Shown piece by piece: positions 2,122-61,808 of a stretch of 64,000 nt of DNA. This stretch comes from Gemmatimonadota bacterium (GTDB lineage: Bacteria > Gemmatimonadota > Gemmatimonadetes > Gemmatimonadales > GWC2-71-9). The notes under the pieces were generated by a model. That model was not told the origin of the DNA. It did not search any database and was given only the letters and a program-made list of their open reading frames with translations. Each line of letters starts with the position of its first letter. Within the stretch, counting starts at the first letter, position 1. Both the position numbers and the translations under genes were made by a program. The stretch lies in contig JAZKBR010000002.1 of the NCBI GenBank assembly GCA_040388535.1, forward strand, positions 520,485 to 584,484, written 5' to 3'.

Positions 2122-2551
2122 CGCGTCGAGCTGGCGACATTAGAGCCGGTGCGCGGGACTGCGCTAGGCCGCTCCGAGGGACCCACGACGCGACGCCCGC
2201 GAATTTCCTGGCAAACAGAAAGAGGAACGGGGCGAGGCGTGAGGGGCCGTGGGAGGAGGATCAATAGGGAGCGCATCCGTAGCCGGCGCTCGTTGCGCCG
2301 GCGGGCGACCCGCGAAGACGAGCCGCCGAACCGCGCACGGGCAGCGTGCGCGGCGGCGGACTCGAGCGGGTCGCGGATGCGCGGAATTTGATCCGACGAC
2401 AGCGGCCTCTCGCGCTGAGCCCCGCCGCGCGGCCGAGTTTCCGTCGCAGGAGAGATCTGCGCCGCACGAGGCGCGGCGCGAGCAAACTCCATGCGTCGCG
2501 GGTGACATCGGTGCCGCGCGAGCGCGGCACCCACATAGGAGCAACAGCCTA
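2122..2551 (+). repeat. Composite dispersed repeat, copy 1 (modules A, B and tail)
   Basis: Module A (about 2122-2189) contains GAGCTGGCGACATTAGAGC, shared with copies at 22661-22760 and 25655-25758. Module B (about 2244-2397) begins GGGCCGTGGGAGGAGGATCA and carries an 8-bp hairpin (2282-2289 with 2295-2302) and a nested 70-nt hairpin (2305-2313/2366-2374; 2320-2328/2354-2363 with one bulge; 2331-2339/2345-2353). The tail (2510-2551) has a perfect 10-bp-arm palindrome with a GA loop, and its outer end stops three bases from the stop codon of the neighbouring minus-strand gene. Module B is nearly identical to 28598-28757; the tail is nearly identical to 61662-61690. Confidence 0.85.
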
Positions 2552-5100: not shown

Positions 5101-5225
5101 CCTGAGCGGAGCAGCCCGCAGGGCTGCGCAGCCGAAGGAGCTGGTCTATCCGTCGAGGTGGATCCCTTCACGCCAGACTCCGCTCCTTCGACTTCGCCCG
5201 CTGCGCGGGCTTCGCTCAGGATGAC
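5096..5225. repeat. Inverted pair of GTCATCCTGAGCG elements
   Basis: Two copies face each other: 13-bp perfect outer arms at 5096-5108 and 5213-5225. Each copy has its own inner hairpin (for example CCCGC/GCGGG within the right copy, 5184-5225). The left arm includes the CAT that is the GMC start codon (5098-5100 on the minus strand). The pair fills most of the 154-bp gap between the GMC gene and the upstream isomerase gene, leaving little room for a normal promoter or ribosome-binding site. Confidence 0.8.
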
Positions 5226-5254
5226 AACGCCCATCGCCCATCGCCCACCAATTC

Positions 5255-6091
5255 CTAGAATCGCAGCTGTCTGAGATATCGGTACGACGTCGCGATGCTC
5301 TGCATCGGATCCTTCGGGTTGTCGTGCTCCACGAAGTAGTGCTTGATGCCCGCCTGCTTGTGTCGCGCGAAAATCTCGGCCCACTTGATAGTCCCCTTGC
5401 CGACTTCGGTCATCGCGTACTCGGGCGCGGGGCCGCCGTCTTTCACGTGCACCATCGGGAAGCGCTCGGGCCACTTCGCGAAATATTGCTCGGGCGTGCC
5501 GCCGCCCTTGATGATCCAGTAGAGGTCCATCTCCATCTGCACCAGCTTCGGATCGGTCTCTTCGAGCAGGACGTCATACATCCGGCGTCCCTCGACCTGG
5601 GTGAATTCGAAGTCGTGGTTGTGATAGGCAAGCTTGATCTTGTAGCGCTTGGCATCTTCGGCGGCGCGATTGAAGAGGTCGGCGACCTTCTTGAGTGCAT
5701 CGAGTGAGGCGCGGTCCTTGTTGTCGAGCCAGGCGACCACGAGGTACTTGTGGCCGATCTCGGCCGACTCGTCGAGGGTTCGGTTCCAGGGCCCCCGCAG
5801 CAGGTCGATGCCGATGTGTCCCGACGGCGACTTGAGTCCGTTGCGATCGAGCAGCTGCTTGATGGCACGCGGTGGCCGGTTGAAGTAGCCGGCGAACTCC
5901 ACTTCCTGATAGCCGATGGCGGCCACGTCGGCGAGCGTCTTCTCGACGCTGACCTTCATCAGGTCGCGCACCGTGTAGAGCTGGACGCCGATCTTCTCGA
6001 GCTTTTCCTGCGCCAGGAGATTGCCGCCACTGGGAAGCATCGATGCGGCTCCCGCTGCTCCGAGTGCGCCTACGAACGTTCGACGGTCCAT
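5255..6091 (-). CDS. Tat-exported sugar phosphate isomerase/epimerase-like TIM barrel
   Basis: 278 aa starting MDRRTFVGALGAAGAASMLP, a Tat signal with twin arginines and an Ala-rich core ending near LLAQ. Mature motifs: GVQLYTVRDLM, YQEVEFAGYFNRPP, LAYHNHDFEF (metal-site His/Asp/Glu), LVQMEMDLYWIIKGG and KHYFVEHDNPKDPMQSI. These are diagnostic of the periplasmic xylose-isomerase-like TIM barrels often found with GMC dehydrogenases. It begins exactly one base before the upstream GMC gene's stop codon region, so the two are adjacent in one operon. It shares the fold with the 2555-3403 product but is clearly divergent. Substrate unknown. Confidence 0.9.
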   Translation of the reverse strand: MDRRTFVGALGAAGAASMLPSGGNLLAQEKLEKIGVQLYTVRDLMKVSVEKTLADVAAIGYQEVEFAGYFNRPPRAIKQLLDRNGLKSPSGHIGIDLLRGPWNRTLDESAEIGHKYLVVAWLDNKDRASLDALKKVADLFNRAAEDAKRYKIKLAYHNHDFEFTQVEGRRMYDVLLEETDPKLVQMEMDLYWIIKGGGTPEQYFAKWPERFPMVHVKDGGPAPEYAMTEVGKGTIKWAEIFARHKQAGIKHYFVEHDNPKDPMQSIATSYRYLRQLRF

Positions 6092-20811: not shown

Positions 20812-21575
20812 ATCCCCGTCGGGTGATCGTGAAACACCGCGTGCAGGCCGAAGCGCTCGGCAAGGTGTTCCCCGAGCGCCTTCACGCCCACGGTCTCGGT
20901 GGCGTAGTGGCCGGCGTACAACACGTTGATGCCGAGCTCGAGCGCATCGAAAGTGGTGTGATGGGCACCTTCGCCGGTGATGAAGGTGTCGAGTCCGGCA
21001 TCGACTGCCGCCTCGATCCGGTTCCCTGCCGCGCCGGTGATGATCCCCACGCGCGTGGTCGTCTCGGGGCCGCCAGGAATCAGGTGCACCCGGCCGCCGA
21101 GCAACTCCGTGAGCCGTGCAGCGAGCGCATCGCGCGACATGATGAGATGTCCCGCTGCTCCGAACGGCATTCCGCGATAGAGATCGAACGGCACCGGATC
21201 GAGAATCCCGAGCATCCGTGCGAGGACGGCATTATTCCCAACGTCGACGTGACTGTCGAGCGGAATGTGGGCCGAGTAGACGGCGATGTCGTGATCGAGC
21301 AGCGACTTGATGCGCCGATAGCGGCGATCGACCATCGGCACGTTGCCGTCCCAGAACAGGCCGTGATGCACGATGAGCATGGTCCCGCGCTCACACTCGG
21401 CCACCACGCGATCGATGGTCTGCTGCGACGCATCGACAGCGGTGACGAATGACGAGATCACCCCGCTGTTTTCAACCTGCAGCCCGTTGAGCGCGACATC
21501 CGCGTCGGGGATGCTGTCGATGTCGAGAAATTCGTCGAGGTATTCGAGCACTTCGTCGAGTTGTGCCGTTCTCAT
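20808..21575 (-). CDS. Nif3-like dinuclear metal centre protein
   Basis: 255 aa. Diagnostic segments: NGLQVENSG near the N-terminus, MLIVHHGLFWDG (metal-ligand His pair), VYSAHIPLDSHVDVGNNAVLARMLG, RVGIITGAAGNRIEAAVDAGLDTFITGEGAHHTTFDALELGINVLYAGHYATETVGVKAL (second set of His and Glu ligands). Full-length short form of the Nif3/YbgI/DUF34 family, a hexameric di-metal protein of incompletely known role. It is embedded with 4-bp overlaps inside the BMP transporter operon, suggesting a linked role in nucleoside or cofactor handling (inference). Confidence 0.94.
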   Translation of the reverse strand: MRTAQLDEVLEYLDEFLDIDSIPDADVALNGLQVENSGVISSFVTAVDASQQTIDRVVAECERGTMLIVHHGLFWDGNVPMVDRRYRRIKSLLDHDIAVYSAHIPLDSHVDVGNNAVLARMLGILDPVPFDLYRGMPFGAAGHLIMSRDALAARLTELLGGRVHLIPGGPETTTRVGIITGAAGNRIEAAVDAGLDTFITGEGAHHTTFDALELGINVLYAGHYATETVGVKALGEHLAERFGLHAVFHDHPTGM

Positions 21576-22564
21576 TTGGCCACCTGTCCGGCAACGATGA
21601 GCGTACCCGCAGCGATCGAGTCGGCGGCCGCCTGCACCCGCGCGGCGAGGCCGGCGGGCCAGTTGGGCTGCAGCGCGGTGTTAGGAATGAAGCGGATCAC
21701 GCCGCTGGCGACACCAAAACTCTCCACCCGCGGCGTGAAGGTGCCACCCTGCACCTCGCGACCGACGAGCAGGAAGGCACGCGGCAGATCGATCGCGGCC
21801 GACGCCTCGACTCGATCGGGCGCGAGGGACGACTGGTCGGCATTGGCGCCGTAGACGTTCACGCCCGGTGTTTCCTTGGCCGCAGAAAACATCCCGAGCG
21901 CCGCCGCGTCGGCATTGTGGTGGATCTGATCGATGCCGAGCCGGATCATCGCGAGGGCGGCTTCCTTGCCGGCAGCGGCGTCATCGAAAGTGTTGAGATA
22001 GACCAGCCGGCTCTGCACATCGGGGCGGGTCGCCTTGGCACCCTGCAGCCACCCCTCGTAGCCGAGCTTGATGGGCGGCAACTCGAGCCCGCCGATGAAG
22101 CCGATCTTCCCGCTCCGGGTGAGCGCGCCTGCCACCATGCCGCAGAGGTAGGTCGCCTCGTGGATCCGGAAGACCAAGGGCACCACGTTGCCCGCCACCC
22201 GCTGGCCGCTGGTGATCACGAAGATGGTTTTCGGGAAATCCTTCGCGACCCGCTCGGCCGCGTCCTGGAATTCGAAGCCGTGACCGAAGACCACGCGGTA
22301 TCCCTGAGTCGCGTAGCTACGGAGCGCTTCCTCCTGTTCGGCCGGGGTGCGTGCCTCGATATGGGAGATCGACGCCTTCAGGGAATCCTGTAGCTGCTGC
22401 AGTCCCTGATAGGCGCCCGAGTTCCACGCTGCGTCGGCGATGCTGCCGGGCGTCACGAGGGCGACCTTCATTCCCTGCGTCGAGTCGCCTGGGGCGGGCG
22501 CGGGCGCCTTGGCACTGCACGCGGTGAGCGTGAGAGTCAGGGCAAGATGAATTGCTCGGCGCAT
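21572..22564 (-). CDS. BMP family substrate-binding lipoprotein
   Basis: 330 aa from the ATG at 22564, giving the lipoprotein signal RRAIHLALTLTLTACSAK (lipidated Cys in LTAC). The body matches the basic membrane protein/PnrA family: MKVALVTPGSIADAAWNSGAYQGLQQL, YRVVFGHGFEFQDAAERVAKDFPKTIFVITSG, FRIHEATYLCGMVAGALTRSGKIGFIGG and QIHHNADAAALGMFSAAKE. It delivers purine nucleosides or a related ligand to the adjacent ABC transporter. The binding pocket residues cannot be assigned to one nucleoside. First gene of the operon; 4-bp overlap with the Nif3 gene. Confidence 0.92.
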   Translation of the reverse strand: MRRAIHLALTLTLTACSAKAPAPAPGDSTQGMKVALVTPGSIADAAWNSGAYQGLQQLQDSLKASISHIEARTPAEQEEALRSYATQGYRVVFGHGFEFQDAAERVAKDFPKTIFVITSGQRVAGNVVPLVFRIHEATYLCGMVAGALTRSGKIGFIGGLELPPIKLGYEGWLQGAKATRPDVQSRLVYLNTFDDAAAGKEAALAMIRLGIDQIHHNADAAALGMFSAAKETPGVNVYGANADQSSLAPDRVEASAAIDLPRAFLLVGREVQGGTFTPRVESFGVASGVIRFIPNTALQPNWPAGLAARVQAAADSIAAGTLIVAGQVAK

Positions 22565-22660
22565 GCTCGCTCCCGCTGGCGGTGGACCCTTCAAAGCTAC
22601 AGCGGTTGGAACGGAGTGTCCGCTATGTGTGCGTTTGCAAGGGGCGAGGGGTGTTGCATC

Positions 22661-22760
22661 GTGGGTGCCTCGCAGCAGCCTTGGAGGCGCCGCGCACCAG
22701 CTCTAATGTCGCCAGCTCGAACCGCCGTCGGGACTCCGTTGGGCTGCGGAGAGGCAGCCC
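22661..22760 (-). repeat. Composite dispersed repeat, copy 2 (module A only)
   Basis: Read on the minus strand this 100-bp stretch matches 25655-25758 closely, including GGAGTCCCGACGGCGGTTCG and GAGCTGGCGACATTAGAGC, and the shared end GAGGCACCCAC. It fills most of the 206-bp gap between the DUF4015 gene stop (22771) and the BMP lipoprotein start. Module B is absent. Confidence 0.85.
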
Positions 22761-22770
22761 GCGGCGATCG

Positions 22771-23844
22771 CTAGGGCTTCGCGCTCGCGAGCTTCACGCC
22801 CGCTTCGATCGACGAGTAGATCCCCTTCGGGTTCCAGAAGAGATACTCCTTGATGCCGAGATCGCGGGCGGCCCGGATCTGGGCGGCGATCTGTTCGGGG
22901 CCGTAGTGCGTGGTGCGATCGACCCATGGCGCGTCGAAGGCCTGCAGAAAGGGGAAGATCTTCCCGGGCTTCTTGCCAGCATCGATCAGCGCCTGGCGGC
23001 GCTTGAGTCCGAGCGTGAGCGAACCGTGCACGGTCTTGTAAGGGAATGCATTCGGATGATTGGCGCCCTTCGGACCATAGTAGTGCGAGGGATAGGCCAT
23101 CGGGATCAGGGTCGGGCTCGACTGAATGAGCTTCTCCCATTGCTGGTAGACACCCGAGCCATCGGGCACGTGCATCGACCACGCAAAGAGCGCTGCCGAC
23201 ATCGCGATTCCCTTTCCGTTCAGCTGCTTCTCTGCGGCCTTGAGGAAACCGGCGACGGCATCACTCGGATCACCCGCCGGTCCGGGATAGACCTGTCGAC
23301 CGATCTTGTGTGACGGCTCCGGAGTGCGCACGTAATCCCACATCACTTCATCGACGCCCTGCGCTCCGGCATCGAGGGCGATGGCGATGTTGTAGTTCCA
23401 CGCGCCCGTGGATGTTGGTGAGAGCCACGCGTGACCACTCTGATTGCGCCAGAGCCCACCGCCCTTCTCGTTCTTGATGGCCCAGTCAGGGTGCGCTTCG
23501 GCCGCACCACCATCATTGAACGTGACGGCGCGTCCCATCACATAGAGCCCGGCCTTGTGCAGTTCGCCGACGATCCAGGTCAGGTCGGCGAGATGTTTCG
23601 CGCCGCCGCCACTCGACGGACGAAAGGTGGTCCCTTCCTCGGTCTTGATGTCGATGACCCAGGTATTGAGTCCGGCGCGCGACGACAACTCGATCAGCTT
23701 CGCGCGGGTTGCCGGTGTGCGCAGCGCGCCCATCGGCACGTAGATGCCGTGCACGAATTCGGGTCGCGGGACTTTTGCGATCTGGGCCGGGAGCGATTGG
23801 GTTGCAGCAAGTGTCAGCGCAAGGAGGAGTGCGCGCATGGTCAT
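22771..23844 (-). CDS. Secreted putative glycoside hydrolase, DUF4015
   Basis: 357 aa with a signal peptide (MRALLLALTLAATQSLPAQ). The TIM-barrel DUF4015 family is recognised from HGIYVPMGALRTPATRAKLIELSSRAGLNTWVIDIKTEEGT, LYVMGRAVTFNDGGAAEAHPDWAIKNEKGG, YNIAIALDAGAQGVDEVMWDYVRTPE (acidic pair Asp-Glu plus Asp) and AQIRAARDLGIKEYLFWNPKGIY. Related to GH13-like putative polysaccharide hydrolases; no substrate known. The ATG overlaps the ParB gene's TGA by 4 bp, so a secreted enzyme is translationally coupled to chromosome partitioning genes. Confidence 0.9.
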   Translation of the reverse strand: MTMRALLLALTLAATQSLPAQIAKVPRPEFVHGIYVPMGALRTPATRAKLIELSSRAGLNTWVIDIKTEEGTTFRPSSGGGAKHLADLTWIVGELHKAGLYVMGRAVTFNDGGAAEAHPDWAIKNEKGGGLWRNQSGHAWLSPTSTGAWNYNIAIALDAGAQGVDEVMWDYVRTPEPSHKIGRQVYPGPAGDPSDAVAGFLKAAEKQLNGKGIAMSAALFAWSMHVPDGSGVYQQWEKLIQSSPTLIPMAYPSHYYGPKGANHPNAFPYKTVHGSLTLGLKRRQALIDAGKKPGKIFPFLQAFDAPWVDRTTHYGPEQIAAQIRAARDLGIKEYLFWNPKGIYSSIEAGVKLASAKP

Positions 23845-24728
23845 CCTTCGAAAGGCTGTCCGAGAATCAGTTCGAGTACGCGGGCGAGGTCGTCATTGGA
23901 ATAGTACGAAATCGCCAGCAGGCCGCGTCCCCGCCGCTTCGCAGTGAGGCGCACGTCAGTACCAAGACGCTTGCGAAGGGCATCCTCCACACGCCGGGCA
24001 TCGGCACTCGCCGGCTTCTGCGCGGCCGGCTTCTTCATCATCTTGCCGCGGCCCTTCTCCGGCGACTCGCCGCGCACCAGCGCCTCGACCTCGCGCACCG
24101 ACCAGTTCTGGGTGACGATTTCCCGTGCGACCCGGGTCATCTCCGCGGGATCGTCGAGGGCGAGCAGCGCGCGGCCGTGCCCTTCGGAAATTTTCCGCGC
24201 CTGCAGCAGTTCCTGCACTTCCGCCGGCAACTTCAACAGCCGCAGCGTGTTGGCGACGGTCGAGCGATCCTTGCCCACCAGCCGGGCGACTTCCGCCTGC
24301 GCGACATTGAACTCGCCCATCAACCGCTGATAGCCGATCGCCTCGTCGAGTCCGGTGAGATCATCACGCTGCAGGTTCTCGATGAGTGCGAGAGTGAGCG
24401 TGGTGCGATCATCGAGGTCGCGCACGACCGCCGGCACCTTGCTCCAACCGAGGCGTTGCACGGCGCGCCAGCGACGTTCGCCCGCGATGAGCTCGAAACG
24501 CGAACCGACCGGGCGCACCACGATCGGCTGCAGCAGTCCCGATGCTTCAATGGACGAGGTCAATTCGGCGAGAGCGGTGTCGTCAAAGGAGCGCCGCGGC
24601 TGGAACGGATTCGCCGAGATCGACGCGACGGCAATTTCACGCAGTGCGCCGCTCGCTTCGGCCTGTTCGCGCGAGATCGGGCCGAGCAGGGCCTCGAGCC
24701 CGCGACCCAGTCGCTGCTTTTCGCTCAT
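23841..24728 (-). CDS. parB: Chromosome partitioning protein ParB
   Basis: 295 aa. N-terminal ISANPFQPRRSFDDTALAELTSSIEASGLLQPIVVRP; CTPase motif ELIAGERRWRAVQRLGWSKVPAVVRDLDD; LIENLQRDDLTGLDEAIGYQRLM; helix-turn-helix QAEVARLVGKDRSTVANTLRLLKLP; C-terminal dimerisation region RGRGLLAISYYSNDDLARVLELILG. ParB/Spo0J binds parS, spreads along DNA as a CTP-dependent clamp and loads SMC. Two parS sites lie just upstream of parA (25586-25601 and 26029-26044). 4-bp overlap with parA and with the following DUF4015 gene. Confidence 0.96.
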   Translation of the reverse strand: MSEKQRLGRGLEALLGPISREQAEASGALREIAVASISANPFQPRRSFDDTALAELTSSIEASGLLQPIVVRPVGSRFELIAGERRWRAVQRLGWSKVPAVVRDLDDRTTLTLALIENLQRDDLTGLDEAIGYQRLMGEFNVAQAEVARLVGKDRSTVANTLRLLKLPAEVQELLQARKISEGHGRALLALDDPAEMTRVAREIVTQNWSVREVEALVRGESPEKGRGKMMKKPAAQKPASADARRVEDALRKRLGTDVRLTAKRRGRGLLAISYYSNDDLARVLELILGQPFEG

Positions 24729-25513
24729 CGTGCCTCCTGACGTAGCCCATCGGTGCGCTTCATCAGCTCCTGCGCGACCGAGAGGTAGCTCTTGGCGCCA
24801 ATCGACGAGAGGTCATAGAGCAGGATCGGCTTGCCGAACGAGGGTGCCTCGGCCAGACGGACGTTGCGCGGGATCACGGTGCGGAAGACCTTGGCCCCGA
24901 AGTATTCCTTGGCCTCACCGACGACCTGGCGCGAGAGATTGAGGCGGGCGTCGTACATCGTGAGCAGGACGCCGTCGATCTGGAAGTCGGGATTGAAGTT
25001 CTGCTGGACGAGGCGTATCGTGTTGAGCAGTTGGGAGATACCTTCCAACGCGTAGTATTCGCACTGGATCGGAATGATGACCGCATTGGCGGCGGTCAGC
25101 ACGTTCAGCGTCACCAGGCCCAGTGACGGCGGGCAATCCACCAGAATGAACTCGTAGTCATCCTGGATCGCCGCGAGCGCCTTCCTCAAGATCGTTTCCC
25201 GATTCGGCCGCGACACCAACTCGAGCTCGGCACCGATCAGGTCCTGGGTCGCTGGCAGGACGTGCAGGAACGGGAGCTGTGGGTCGGGCCGCACCGCCTC
25301 CGCTACCGGCATCCCCTCGATCAGGACGTCATAGAGCGATCGCTCGACGCTTCCCTTCTCGAACCCCACCCCGGACGTCGCGTTTCCTTGCGGATCGGCA
25401 TCAATGAGCAGCGTCTTCCGCTCCGCAATCGCAAGTGAGGCGGCGAGGTTGACGGCGGTGGTGGTCTTGCCGACCCCGCCCTTCTGATTGGCGATAGCGA
25501 TGGTACGGGCCAT
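24725..25513 (-). CDS. parA: Chromosome partitioning ATPase ParA
   Basis: 262 aa from the ATG at 25513 (MARTIAIANQKGGVGKTTTA); a 20-residue upstream extension is rejected because the P-loop should lie at the N-terminus. Deviant Walker A KGGVGKTTTAVNLAASL; DADPQGNATSGVG; Walker B-like FILVDCPPSLGLVTLNVLTA; a C-terminal YGAKVFRT-like segment (FGAKVFRTVIPRNVRLAEAPSFGKPI). This is the Soj-type short ParA, which drives origin segregation with ParB. 4-bp overlap with parB. Confidence 0.96.
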   Translation of the reverse strand: MARTIAIANQKGGVGKTTTAVNLAASLAIAERKTLLIDADPQGNATSGVGFEKGSVERSLYDVLIEGMPVAEAVRPDPQLPFLHVLPATQDLIGAELELVSRPNRETILRKALAAIQDDYEFILVDCPPSLGLVTLNVLTAANAVIIPIQCEYYALEGISQLLNTIRLVQQNFNPDFQIDGVLLTMYDARLNLSRQVVGEAKEYFGAKVFRTVIPRNVRLAEAPSFGKPILLYDLSSIGAKSYLSVAQELMKRTDGLRQEAR

Positions 25514-25585
25514 TCTGGATCCGATGCGGTGGGGAACGCGAGGAAGATAGACGCGAGCGGCCCCGGACGACAACGCGGATGGGTG

Positions 25586-25601
25586 TGTTTCACGTGAAAC
25601 G
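25586..25601. promoter_or_regulatory. parS site 1
   Basis: TGTTTCACGTGAAACG matches the widely conserved parS consensus TGTTTCACGTGAAACA at 15 of 16 positions, about 70 bp upstream of parA. ParB nucleation site; may also bear on parA expression because of its position. Confidence 0.93.
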
Positions 25602-25654
25602 GCGTAGGAGCGAGTAAACGTATCGCCAGGCCGGCATTCGCAGGCGTTGCTCGT

Positions 25655-25972
25655 GGGCTGTCTCTCCGCAGCCCAGCGGAGTCCCGACGGCGGTTCGAGC
25701 TGGCGACATTAGAGCTGGTGCGCGGCGCCTCCGCGAGTCTGCTCCGAGGCACCCACGACTCAACGCCCGCGAACCCGTCCGAGCATGTGACGAGAAGCAC
25801 TTCCTCGGTGGCGCTCGGCGCGGGGGCCGTGGGAGGAGAATCAGTAGGGAGCGCGTCCGCAGCCGGCGCTCCTCGCGCCGGCGAGCGATTCGCAGGAGCG
25901 ACCGCCGAGCGGGCGGCAGCGCCCGCCGCCGGTCGCGACCGAATCGCGGACGCGCGGATCCTGATTCGACGA
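25655..25972 (+). repeat. Composite dispersed repeat, copy 3 (modules A and B) between parS sites
   Basis: Module A (25655-25758) is about 90% like the reverse complement of 22661-22760. Module B (about 25823-25972) starts GGGCCGTGGGAGGAGAATCA and has the 8-bp hairpin (25862-25869 with 25875-25882) and a nested hairpin: 25885-25892/25940-25947, 25898-25904/25930-25936 and 25909-25915/25920-25926, all perfect. The arm sequences differ from copy 1 (for example GCGATTCG/CGAATCGC instead of GCGACCCG/CGGGTCGC) yet pairing is kept. Confidence 0.85.
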
Positions 25973-26028
25973 ACGCGGCTCCCGCGCCGAGCGCCTGCGC
26001 AGGCAAGCCGCTGGCGGTGCCTGCGCAG

Positions 26029-26044
26029 TGTTTCACGTGAAACA
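26029..26044. promoter_or_regulatory. parS site 2
   Basis: TGTTTCACGTGAAACA is a perfect 16-bp match to the parS consensus, 443 bp from site 1. The two sites bracket copy 3 of the composite repeat. Confidence 0.95.
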
Positions 26045-26096
26045 AAAGCGCACAGTGGTAGGCAAACCATTACCATATAATGAGTTACCGAAACGA

Positions 26097-26130
26097 CGAA
26101 GCCGGAGCAAGTCGCCTCGCTCCGGCCTCG
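26097..26130 (-). terminator. Intrinsic-terminator-like hairpin behind ABC exporter genes
   Basis: Perfect 8-bp stem GCCGGAGC (26101-26108) with GCTCCGGC (26119-26126), extended by ACGA/TCGT flanks. Read on the minus strand it is followed by TTCGTCGTTTC, a weak T-rich tail. It lies 23 bp past the permease stop at 26154. Confidence 0.65.
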
Positions 26131-26153
26131 TTTCAACCAGAACCGCGATTCAA

Positions 26154-27470
26154 TTAGCCAACGCGGATCCAGTGGAAGAGCTCCTTGAAGCTCGGCTTCT
26201 TGCCGTACATCAGGATGCCAGTGCGATAGATCCGCCCGGCGAGCCAGACGCAGGCGAGGAGGCCAGCGACCATCAGCACCAGCGACAGCGCCAGTTGCGA
26301 GGCCGGCACCGAGGCGAGCGACCAGCGGACCGGCATCACGAAGGGCGCGAAGAAGGGGATGAACGACATCGTCACACCCAGCGAGCCGCCTGGATCCTTG
26401 ATGAGCGCGAAGACCGAGAAGAAGCCGATCATGATCACGACGGTGACAAAGACTGCCGTCTGCTGCGCTTCCTGCACCGTGTTCACCATCGAGCCAATCG
26501 CGGCGTAAAGCGCGCCGTACAACAGGAAGCCGAGCGCGAAGTAGACCAGGAAGACGGCGAGAAGATCGGGCGCCATCGTCGGGATCGGGAAGCTCTGGAT
26601 CGCGTCGGCGCTCACGTGGAACACGCTCGCGAGCTTGTCGCGATTGCTGCCGACAAGAAAGACCGAGCCACCCCAGATCGTCATCTGCGTGAGGCCGACG
26701 AGGCCAACACCAACCACTTTGCCGAGCAGCATCTGGAACGGCGTGAGCGACGATGCGAGCACTTCCATGATGCGTGACGTCTTCTCTTCAATCACCGACG
26801 TCATCGTCTGTTGGCCGTAGAGAATGATGCCCAGATAGAGGATGAAGCCCATGATGTAGGCGATGAAGAATGACGTCTGGCCACTCTGCCCCGTCGCCTT
26901 GCCATCAGTGACCTTGGTGGTCTGCAGATCAGCGGGCGTCATCGCACCCATCACCAGCGCGGGATCGACACCGGACTTCGAAAGTCGCGACGTCGCGAAG
27001 ACGCGCGAGAAGACACCCTGAATCCGACCCATCGACTCGAACGACCCGACGTTGTTGCCGTAGTAGTTGAGCTTGCCGGAGGTCACCGCCTCGTCGGTGA
27101 CGACGATCACACCATCCCAGCTGTGCTGCTTGGAGCCTTTGTCGAAGCCGGTCTGCGCGATGAGCGAGTCCTGCACCGCGGCGACGCGACCGACCGCGTC
27201 GAAGCGGGTGAGCTGGAATCGCGCTGCCGCATCCGGCTTCTCGCTGAGCTTCTGCGCCGCGAGGGCCGCGAAGGCCTGCTCACCAACGCCGTTGGTGGTG
27301 CCATCGACCAGTGCGACGCGTGAGGTGCGATCGCCGCTGCTCATCATCAGCGCCGGCACGACCGACGTGAAGACAATCAGCACCGGCAGCAGGATCGTCG
27401 AGAGAATGAAGGCGCGAGTACGCACGCGCTCGGTGTATTCGCGGCGAATGACTGCGAAGATCTTTTGCAT
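26154..27470 (-). CDS. ABC-2 type transporter permease (NatB-like)
   Basis: 438 aa. N-terminal KIFAVIRREYTERVRTRAFILSTILLPVLIVFTSVVP, a large extracytoplasmic domain (about 60-200) and then five to six TM segments including FFIAYIMGFILYLGIILYGQQTMTSVIEEKTSRIMEVLASSLTPFQMLLGKVVGVGLVGLTQMTIW; EEKTSRIMEVLASS is the hallmark of NatB/YhaP permeases. With the overlapping ATPase gene (27470) it forms an exporter; the family exports sodium ions or unknown substrates, so the cargo is not assigned. Confidence 0.92.
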   Translation of the reverse strand: MQKIFAVIRREYTERVRTRAFILSTILLPVLIVFTSVVPALMMSSGDRTSRVALVDGTTNGVGEQAFAALAAQKLSEKPDAAARFQLTRFDAVGRVAAVQDSLIAQTGFDKGSKQHSWDGVIVVTDEAVTSGKLNYYGNNVGSFESMGRIQGVFSRVFATSRLSKSGVDPALVMGAMTPADLQTTKVTDGKATGQSGQTSFFIAYIMGFILYLGIILYGQQTMTSVIEEKTSRIMEVLASSLTPFQMLLGKVVGVGLVGLTQMTIWGGSVFLVGSNRDKLASVFHVSADAIQSFPIPTMAPDLLAVFLVYFALGFLLYGALYAAIGSMVNTVQEAQQTAVFVTVVIMIGFFSVFALIKDPGGSLGVTMSFIPFFAPFVMPVRWSLASVPASQLALSLVLMVAGLLACVWLAGRIYRTGILMYGKKPSFKELFHWIRVG

Positions 27471-28438: not shown

Positions 28439-28597
28439 TGCGGAGATCTCCGTGAGTGAGACAGCCTCGGAACTTAACGAGAAGCGAGAAGCGGGAAGCG
28501 AGGGGCGACCCCGCGGCTGTCATCCTGAGCCACCCGTAGCTGCCGTGCTTGCGCGGCAGTCCTTTGCAGGCGGGGCTCGGTCGGGGGAAGCCGTCCT

Positions 28598-28757
28598 CGT
28601 CGGATCAAATCCCGCGCGTTCGCGACCCGATCGAGTCCGCCGCCGGGCACGCTGCCCGTGCCCGGTTCGGCGGCTCGTCTTCGCGGGTCGCCCGCCGGCG
28701 CCAACAGCGCCGGCTGCGAACGCGCTCCCTATTGATCCTCCTCTGACCGCCCCCCCG
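28598..28757 (-). repeat. Composite dispersed repeat, copy 4 (module B)
   Basis: Read on the minus strand it is nearly identical to 2244-2397, from GAGGAGGATCAATAGGGAGC to GATTTGATCCGACGA. Nested hairpin: 28622-28629/28684-28691 outer and 28643-28651/28657-28665 inner, both perfect. In the inner stem the fourth pair is G-C where copy 1 has C-G. Module A is absent. Confidence 0.87.
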
Positions 28758-28796
28758 CACCGAGCCCCCATCCTCTCGGCCTGACCTGGCGCCCAC

Positions 28797-61665: not shown

Positions 61666-61753
61666 GCTGTTGCCCCTATGTGGGTGCCGCGCCGGCGCCA
61701 GCAGCGTCGGCTATGGATGCGCTCCCTACTGATCCTCCTCTGACGGCCCCCCG
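61662..61753 (-). repeat. Composite dispersed repeat, copy 5 (module B start joined to tail)
   Basis: Read on the minus strand: GGGCCGTCAGAGGAGGATCA, the first hairpin of module B (one mismatch in the stem) and then directly the tail CGCGGCACCCACATAGG ending GCAACAGCCTAC. Compared with copy 1 the nested hairpin and all DNA between it and the tail are missing. The tail includes the TAG stop codon of mtgA. Confidence 0.82.
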
Positions 61754-61808
61754 CACCGCGCCCCTTTCCTCTCTGTTCCCCGCGAATCTCCATAGCACGA
61801 CAAGTACA

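Follow-up and report, generated by a model that had tools for sequence, protein, structure and literature searches.

Chromosomal ParABS loci combine a ParA-type Walker ATPase with a ParB protein of three domains (N-terminal, HTH and dimerisation) and a canonical 16-bp parS near parAB, in proximity to the origin. Excerpts of the literature describe ParB as loading at parS and sliding as a CTP clamp that is stopped by protein roadblocks (PMC8299390), report that Caulobacter ParB produced in E. coli extends as far as ~2 kb from a single parS (PMC5815017), and state that in P. aeruginosa one oriC-proximal parS, whichever of the four it is, is enough (PMC4368675). Among dispersed intergenic palindromes, the closest described classes are REP/BIME elements, defined in excerpts of two sources as units of 20–40 bp with usually more than 100 copies, alternating orientation and an associated RAYT (PMC2817692, PMC3733652), with families of 20–100 units or fewer also reported in excerpts of the latter (PMC3733652), and MITEs, i.e. 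small, non-coding, dispersed elements with terminal inverted repeats, target-site duplications and a parental transposase. Searches for literature on palindromes, hairpins, insertions or cruciforms at parS returned nothing matching among the top-ranked results, as judged from the listings, and the same was true of relevant work on Gemmatimonadetes parS/ParB, Gemmatimonas REP/MITE elements or parS distribution among the top-ranked results.

The window, i.e. the whole stretch of 64,000 nucleotides analysed here (C2:520485–584484), belongs to a 3.72-Mb draft genome in 11 contigs, taken to be of Gemmatimonadota on the strength of its genes, and contains a par locus that conforms to the chromosomal type, with parA, a three-domain parB and canonical parS just upstream. 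Pfam searches confirmed the gene order parA-parB-DUF4015 given by an earlier sequence-only reading of this DNA (Table 1). That reading had also placed a repeat copy at the origin; the repeat does lie inside a parS cluster near dnaA, and its placement at the origin holds approximately: the best match to dnaA (C2:586167–586652) is ~40 kb from parS2 and 1.7 kb past the window end. Three parS-like sites were found in the window at ≤3 mismatches (starting at 5439, 25586 and 26029, with three, one and no mismatches, respectively), against 0.07 expected per window from shuffled sequence. Genome-wide, parS1 and parS2 were the only parS sites at ≤2 mismatches, and a reversed-pattern control gave none. 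Both fall inside the 640-bp intergenic stretch from the ABC-2 permease to parA, with a start-to-start spacing of 443 bp and 427 bases between them, and they bracket a full composite repeat consisting of module A and module B, just as the earlier reading had described. No half-parS motif was found in the spacer. The locus thus differs from the described chromosomal systems in having two parS genome-wide, set far apart and with dispersed repeats between them.

Table 1 Features of the par locus and repeat copies in the window (positions are those of the window).
Feature	Position	Strand	Remarks
Bmp (PnrA-like) gene	21572–22594	−	Pfam
Inverted module A	22645–22763	−	~8 bp after DUF4015 stop codon
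DUF4015 gene	22771–23844	−	Pfam; overlaps parB stop codon
parB	23841–24728	−	ParB_N, HTH_ParB, ParB_C (Pfam)
parA	24725–25513	−	AAA_31 / CbiA (Pfam)
parS1	25586–25601		parA-proximal; 15/16 to TGTTTCACGTGAAACA; start 88 bp before parA start codon
Module A	25634–25775 (about)	+	full copy; ~140 bp imperfect palindrome, inverted ends
Module B	25813–25992 (about)	+	full copy; ~180 bp hairpin, inverted ends GCTCGGCGCGGG / CCCGCGCCGAGC
36-nt palindrome	25993–26028		abuts parS2; opposite-strand self-match and fold
parS2	26029–26044		distal; 16/16
ABC-2 permease	26154–27470	−	Pfam; upstream of par locus
Module B copy	2243–2423	+	divergent or partial module A alongside at ~2016–2215
Module B copy	28553–28768	−	no adjoining module A
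Partial module B copy	61690–61764	−

Both modules have a consensus hairpin supported by compensatory changes, at 7 of 23 pairs in module A (21 sequences) and at 14 of 57 pairs in module B (10 sequences). An assignment to a known RNA family was rejected, as Rfam returned no match to described families at E ≤ 1 in 25500–26160. BLAST with the whole inter-parS stretch retrieved 39 places in the same genome, and a covariance model of module A (E ≤ 0.01, best 150 of 6396 candidates scored) gave 52 rows, corresponding to at least 29 places after reverse-strand palindrome hits had been merged. Since none of these places carries a parS other than the two in the genome, the parS sites did not travel with the repeat. 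Several further places show the order A then B with both modules pointing the same way, and an A-B-A arrangement occurs at C7:135.6–136.1 kb.

The modules resemble REP/BIME elements in being intergenic, palindromic, species-specific and sometimes organized as mosaics (A-B, A-B-A) and arrays. They differ from REP/BIME elements in their longer units, in a copy number below the usual one (module A at the at least 29 places obtained from the best 150 candidates), in the mostly direct orientation of neighbouring copies and in that no RAYT lies beside a module copy among the matches listed. A RAYT-driven REP was rejected, given that the two Y1_Tnp genes of the genome both lie away from repeat copies among the matches listed. 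MITE-like features comprise the small size, dispersal, non-coding nature and terminal inverted repeats of the modules. Inspection by eye of 23 aligned module A copies showed no target-site duplication in their flanks, and no parental transposase was identified. Because modules A and B fit the REP/BIME or MITE definitions only in part, we treat them as a family of dispersed intergenic palindromes without a name of its own. Direct arrays of module A, with copies 0.2–5 kb apart, are seen at or near draft contig ends (L009 1–8800, L010 2900–8600 and L011 7500–10638). These arrays raised the candidate of integron attC sites, which was rejected by eye since the outer ends of module A read GTT...AAC, the reverse of the attC consensus order; in addition, the arrays hold ordinary-looking genes. 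A scan of GTDB r220 with the core 23-mer of module A, from which records of the window's own genome may have been left out, gave one contig with an exact match, in an Ignavibacteriales MAG; the match lies in an apparent protein-coding stretch and was taken as chance.

We compared the locus across the family. ParB is present in 54 of 61 family genomes, the window's own included, and parS at ≤1 mismatch in 45 of the 61, at the par locus as far as places were comparable; the exception is G044, in which parS lies near a contig end with no parA in the stretch examined. The region upstream of parA was readable in 53 relatives (36, plus five genus loci, plus 12; G044 and G065 were unusable). When sites were counted at ≤2 mismatches, or three when near, 35 of these relatives had a parS pair and 18 a single site. 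Start-to-start spacing was 14–41 bp in 20 pairs, 74–288 bp in 10 and 571–1259 bp in five, with four of the 35 pairs relying on a three-mismatch site (G003, G004, G025 and G057; the sites overlap in G003). The interval between the sites tolerates varied contents, as it is filled by an ORF in G036 and G056 and by a minus-strand ORF in G059. A separate observation concerns the distal parS of these three genomes, which doubles as coding sequence in that the ORF begins in or runs through the site: in G036, parS preceded by A reads ATG TTT CAC GTG AAA (MFHVK...), in G056 it encodes an in-frame FHVK, and in G059 the minus-strand ORF begins VFHVK.

The module A model had no matches in the nine other genus genomes, and the A-B composite had no strong match among the 60 other family genomes. 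The best one was a module B homologue in G035 (1496–1634 of stretch L027), which is 73% identical over 140 nt and retains the same hairpin plan with changed stems; the remaining weak module B matches in relatives were short GC-rich stretches. From its sequence, module B looks older than module A, and it may be an undescribed structured element.

At the far end of the parAB-DUF4015 cluster lies the second copy of module A noted earlier, which is indeed inverted, the two arms (22683–22763 and 25652–25732) being 96% complementary over 81 nt with 2888 nt between them. Searches of the nine genus mates gave no match to its neighbour, the DUF4015 gene. Bmp and then a Nif3-like gene directly follow parB on its 3′ side in G035, G055, G061, G064 and G066; in G065 Bmp is present up to the contig end, parB of G067 is followed by a Nif3-like gene, and no Bmp was detected in the stretch of G062 that was examined. 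Given that neither module A nor DUF4015 was found in the nine genus mates and that Bmp stands directly after parB in five, both A copies mark species-specific changes: on comparison of sequences, they appear to accompany one gene gain and one widened parS pair, each private to this lineage.

The reading that we favour, with a probability of roughly 0.6, is that the repeats represent a tolerated insertion into a permissive interval, which pushed a formerly close parS pair 443 bp apart, whereas the DUF4015 gene and its module A arrived in a separate event, and that spacing carries little cost. The stretch between the parS sites upstream of parA would be insertion-tolerant in the family and would collect whatever arrives, from the ORFs of G036 and G056 and the minus-strand ORF of G059 to the palindromic repeats here. 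Species-specific, REP/MITE-like palindromes (modules A and B) would have entered it by insertion in an ancestor with a close pair, and a separate event would have placed the DUF4015 gene and another module A between parB and Bmp. Three lines of data support this account, namely the dispersal of the elements, the lack of module A matches in genus mates and the frequent occurrence of close, repeat-free parS pairs in the family. That the ancestor had a close pair is drawn from other genera, because the genus mates with the permease immediately upstream as in the window's genome (G035, G055, G066 and G067) have one recognisable parS each. ParB would load at each parS and slide over the repeat, so that a wider spacing would cost little and be close to functionally neutral. 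In line with this, 443 bp is well within the reach of ParB, given the spreading of up to ~2 kb described in excerpts of PMC5815017, and the distance between sites need not be critical, given the sufficiency of one of four sites in P. aeruginosa stated in excerpts of PMC4368675; sliding reach and single-site sufficiency together would therefore allow a parS pair to drift apart at little cost. Counting against insertion, we found no empty site alignable base for base, saw no target-site duplication at the module A ends and could link no transposase to the repeats among the matches listed. If the account is correct, a private palindromic repeat family has landed in a centromere. The bacterial family provides a comparative demonstration that parS-pair spacing is free to vary, from ~20 bp to >1 kb, with genes or repeats between.

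Tolerance alone does not predict one feature of the genus, which underlies the main rival to tolerated insertion: that selection maintains the palindrome between the parS sites as part of the centromere, in the form of a non-coding, structured spacer (hairpin, cruciform or protein-binding palindrome) that would separate two ParB loading sites or bound ParB sliding or transcription. We consider this unlikely. Sixteen inter-parS spacers of ≥58 nt (four from the genus, 12 from other genera) were folded as single-stranded DNA and compared with dinucleotide shuffles. All four genus members with a pair had a hairpin-rich spacer (z of −7.7 in the window's genome, G000, −7.9 in G061, −4.7 in G062 and −4.5 in G064), as opposed to none of the 12 wide spacers of other genera, for which z ranged from −2.3 to +1.2. 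Length-matched intergenic windows seldom reached the observed values: 5 of 500 for G062 (68 nt), 4 of 300 for G064 (125 nt), 0 of 90 for G061 (272 nt) and 0 of 34 for G000 (427 nt, a class of 34 windows). This control drew on 924 of 930 same-genus windows, with genes called by a simple ORF and codon-position GC filter independent of annotation and with seven parS-containing intergenic segments deliberately left out. No similarity between any of the four spacers was detected below E 0.1, and the palindrome of G061 is single copy in its draft genome; judged by sequence, the three sister species G061, G062 and G064 thus seem to carry unrelated palindromes at the same spot, which speaks for the structural role that the earlier reading had offered as one possibility. 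In G066, moreover, the lone parS, about 91 bp before parA, is centred in a larger inverted repeat (AATGCCGCCG...CGGCGGCATT). However, the pattern was put to the test after it had caught our attention and, as it comes from four genomes of one genus, is not independent of shared ancestry. The three genus mates G035, G055 and G067, with one parS each, had no such palindrome that we noticed; G062 has only a short hairpin, whose signal fades with more flank, z being no stronger than −1.7 for a 180-nt piece that includes most of it. Furthermore, the palindromes in the window's genome are ordinary genome repeats, and the spacer is devoid of half-parS motifs. Slightly less likely again is the more specific proposal that the genus centromere is a parS-palindrome-parS composite conserved in structure rather than sequence, with a boundary or an extruded cruciform between the ParB loading sites, whose spacer would have come to hold unrelated hairpins in different species (repeats of a private family here, palindromes present in single copy elsewhere). 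Should the palindromic spacer prove to be selected, it would add to bacterial centromere architecture an element that had gone unnoticed, and would allow a possible influence of DNA secondary structure on the sliding of ParB clamps to be tested in a natural setting.

Alternatively, the palindromes may have nothing to do with parS and serve to terminate transcription, or to insulate the par operon from the gene upstream of it. Hairpins are commonly found where genes end, and in G062 and G064 the spacer starts where an ORF that we take to be mnmG-like ends, or shortly after it. We nevertheless regard this as improbable, for no intrinsic terminator-like site was found within 25400–26200, a separate inverted repeat is visible by eye near 26096–26120 in the interval from the permease to parS2, and the close parS pairs of other genera leave no room for a terminator. 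Least probable of all, and very doubtful in our view, is that recombination between the inverted module A copies, or movement of a cassette by them, imported or flipped DUF4015 or the whole A-to-A segment through A homology. DUF4015 and module A are specific to the window's genome, and the other inverted module A pair among the matches listed (C2:815.7/817.8 kb) tightly brackets one DUF885 gene with module B outside, reproducing the order at the par locus (B-A, DUF885 gene, inverted A; L012 3458–5904). Against this, parA-parB represents native synteny, not a cassette; because this synteny to Bmp is kept in relatives, in the same orientation, the A-to-A segment was not inverted or imported. In addition, module A lies on one side only of DUF4015, and 11 of 13 neighbouring module A pairs within 5 kb on the same contig are direct and two inverted, among the matches listed. 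Two inverted pairs are insufficient as a bracketing rule. What survives of the proposed recombination is a species-specific rearrangement at this locus, and not the inverted A pair as a general frame for cassettes: bracketing by inverted pairs elsewhere came down to the DUF885 gene, among the matches listed. The earlier reading had named, as what would speak against it, relatives with the parS pair and no repeat together with no bracketing elsewhere; the former is what relatives present, and bracketing is seen at that one other place.

Two minor observations concern the distribution of repeats. Of the 16 module A clusters among the matches listed, four are found no more than 65 kb from dnaA (C2:522–611 kb), compared with 0.56 expected; the binomial P of 0.002 was calculated post hoc, and the contigs of the draft break off at repeats. 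A further family of dispersed repeats, of the type GTCATCCTGAGCGAAGC..., is present in inverted orientation at 1953–2001 and 5179–5227 of the window and also occurs in L009.
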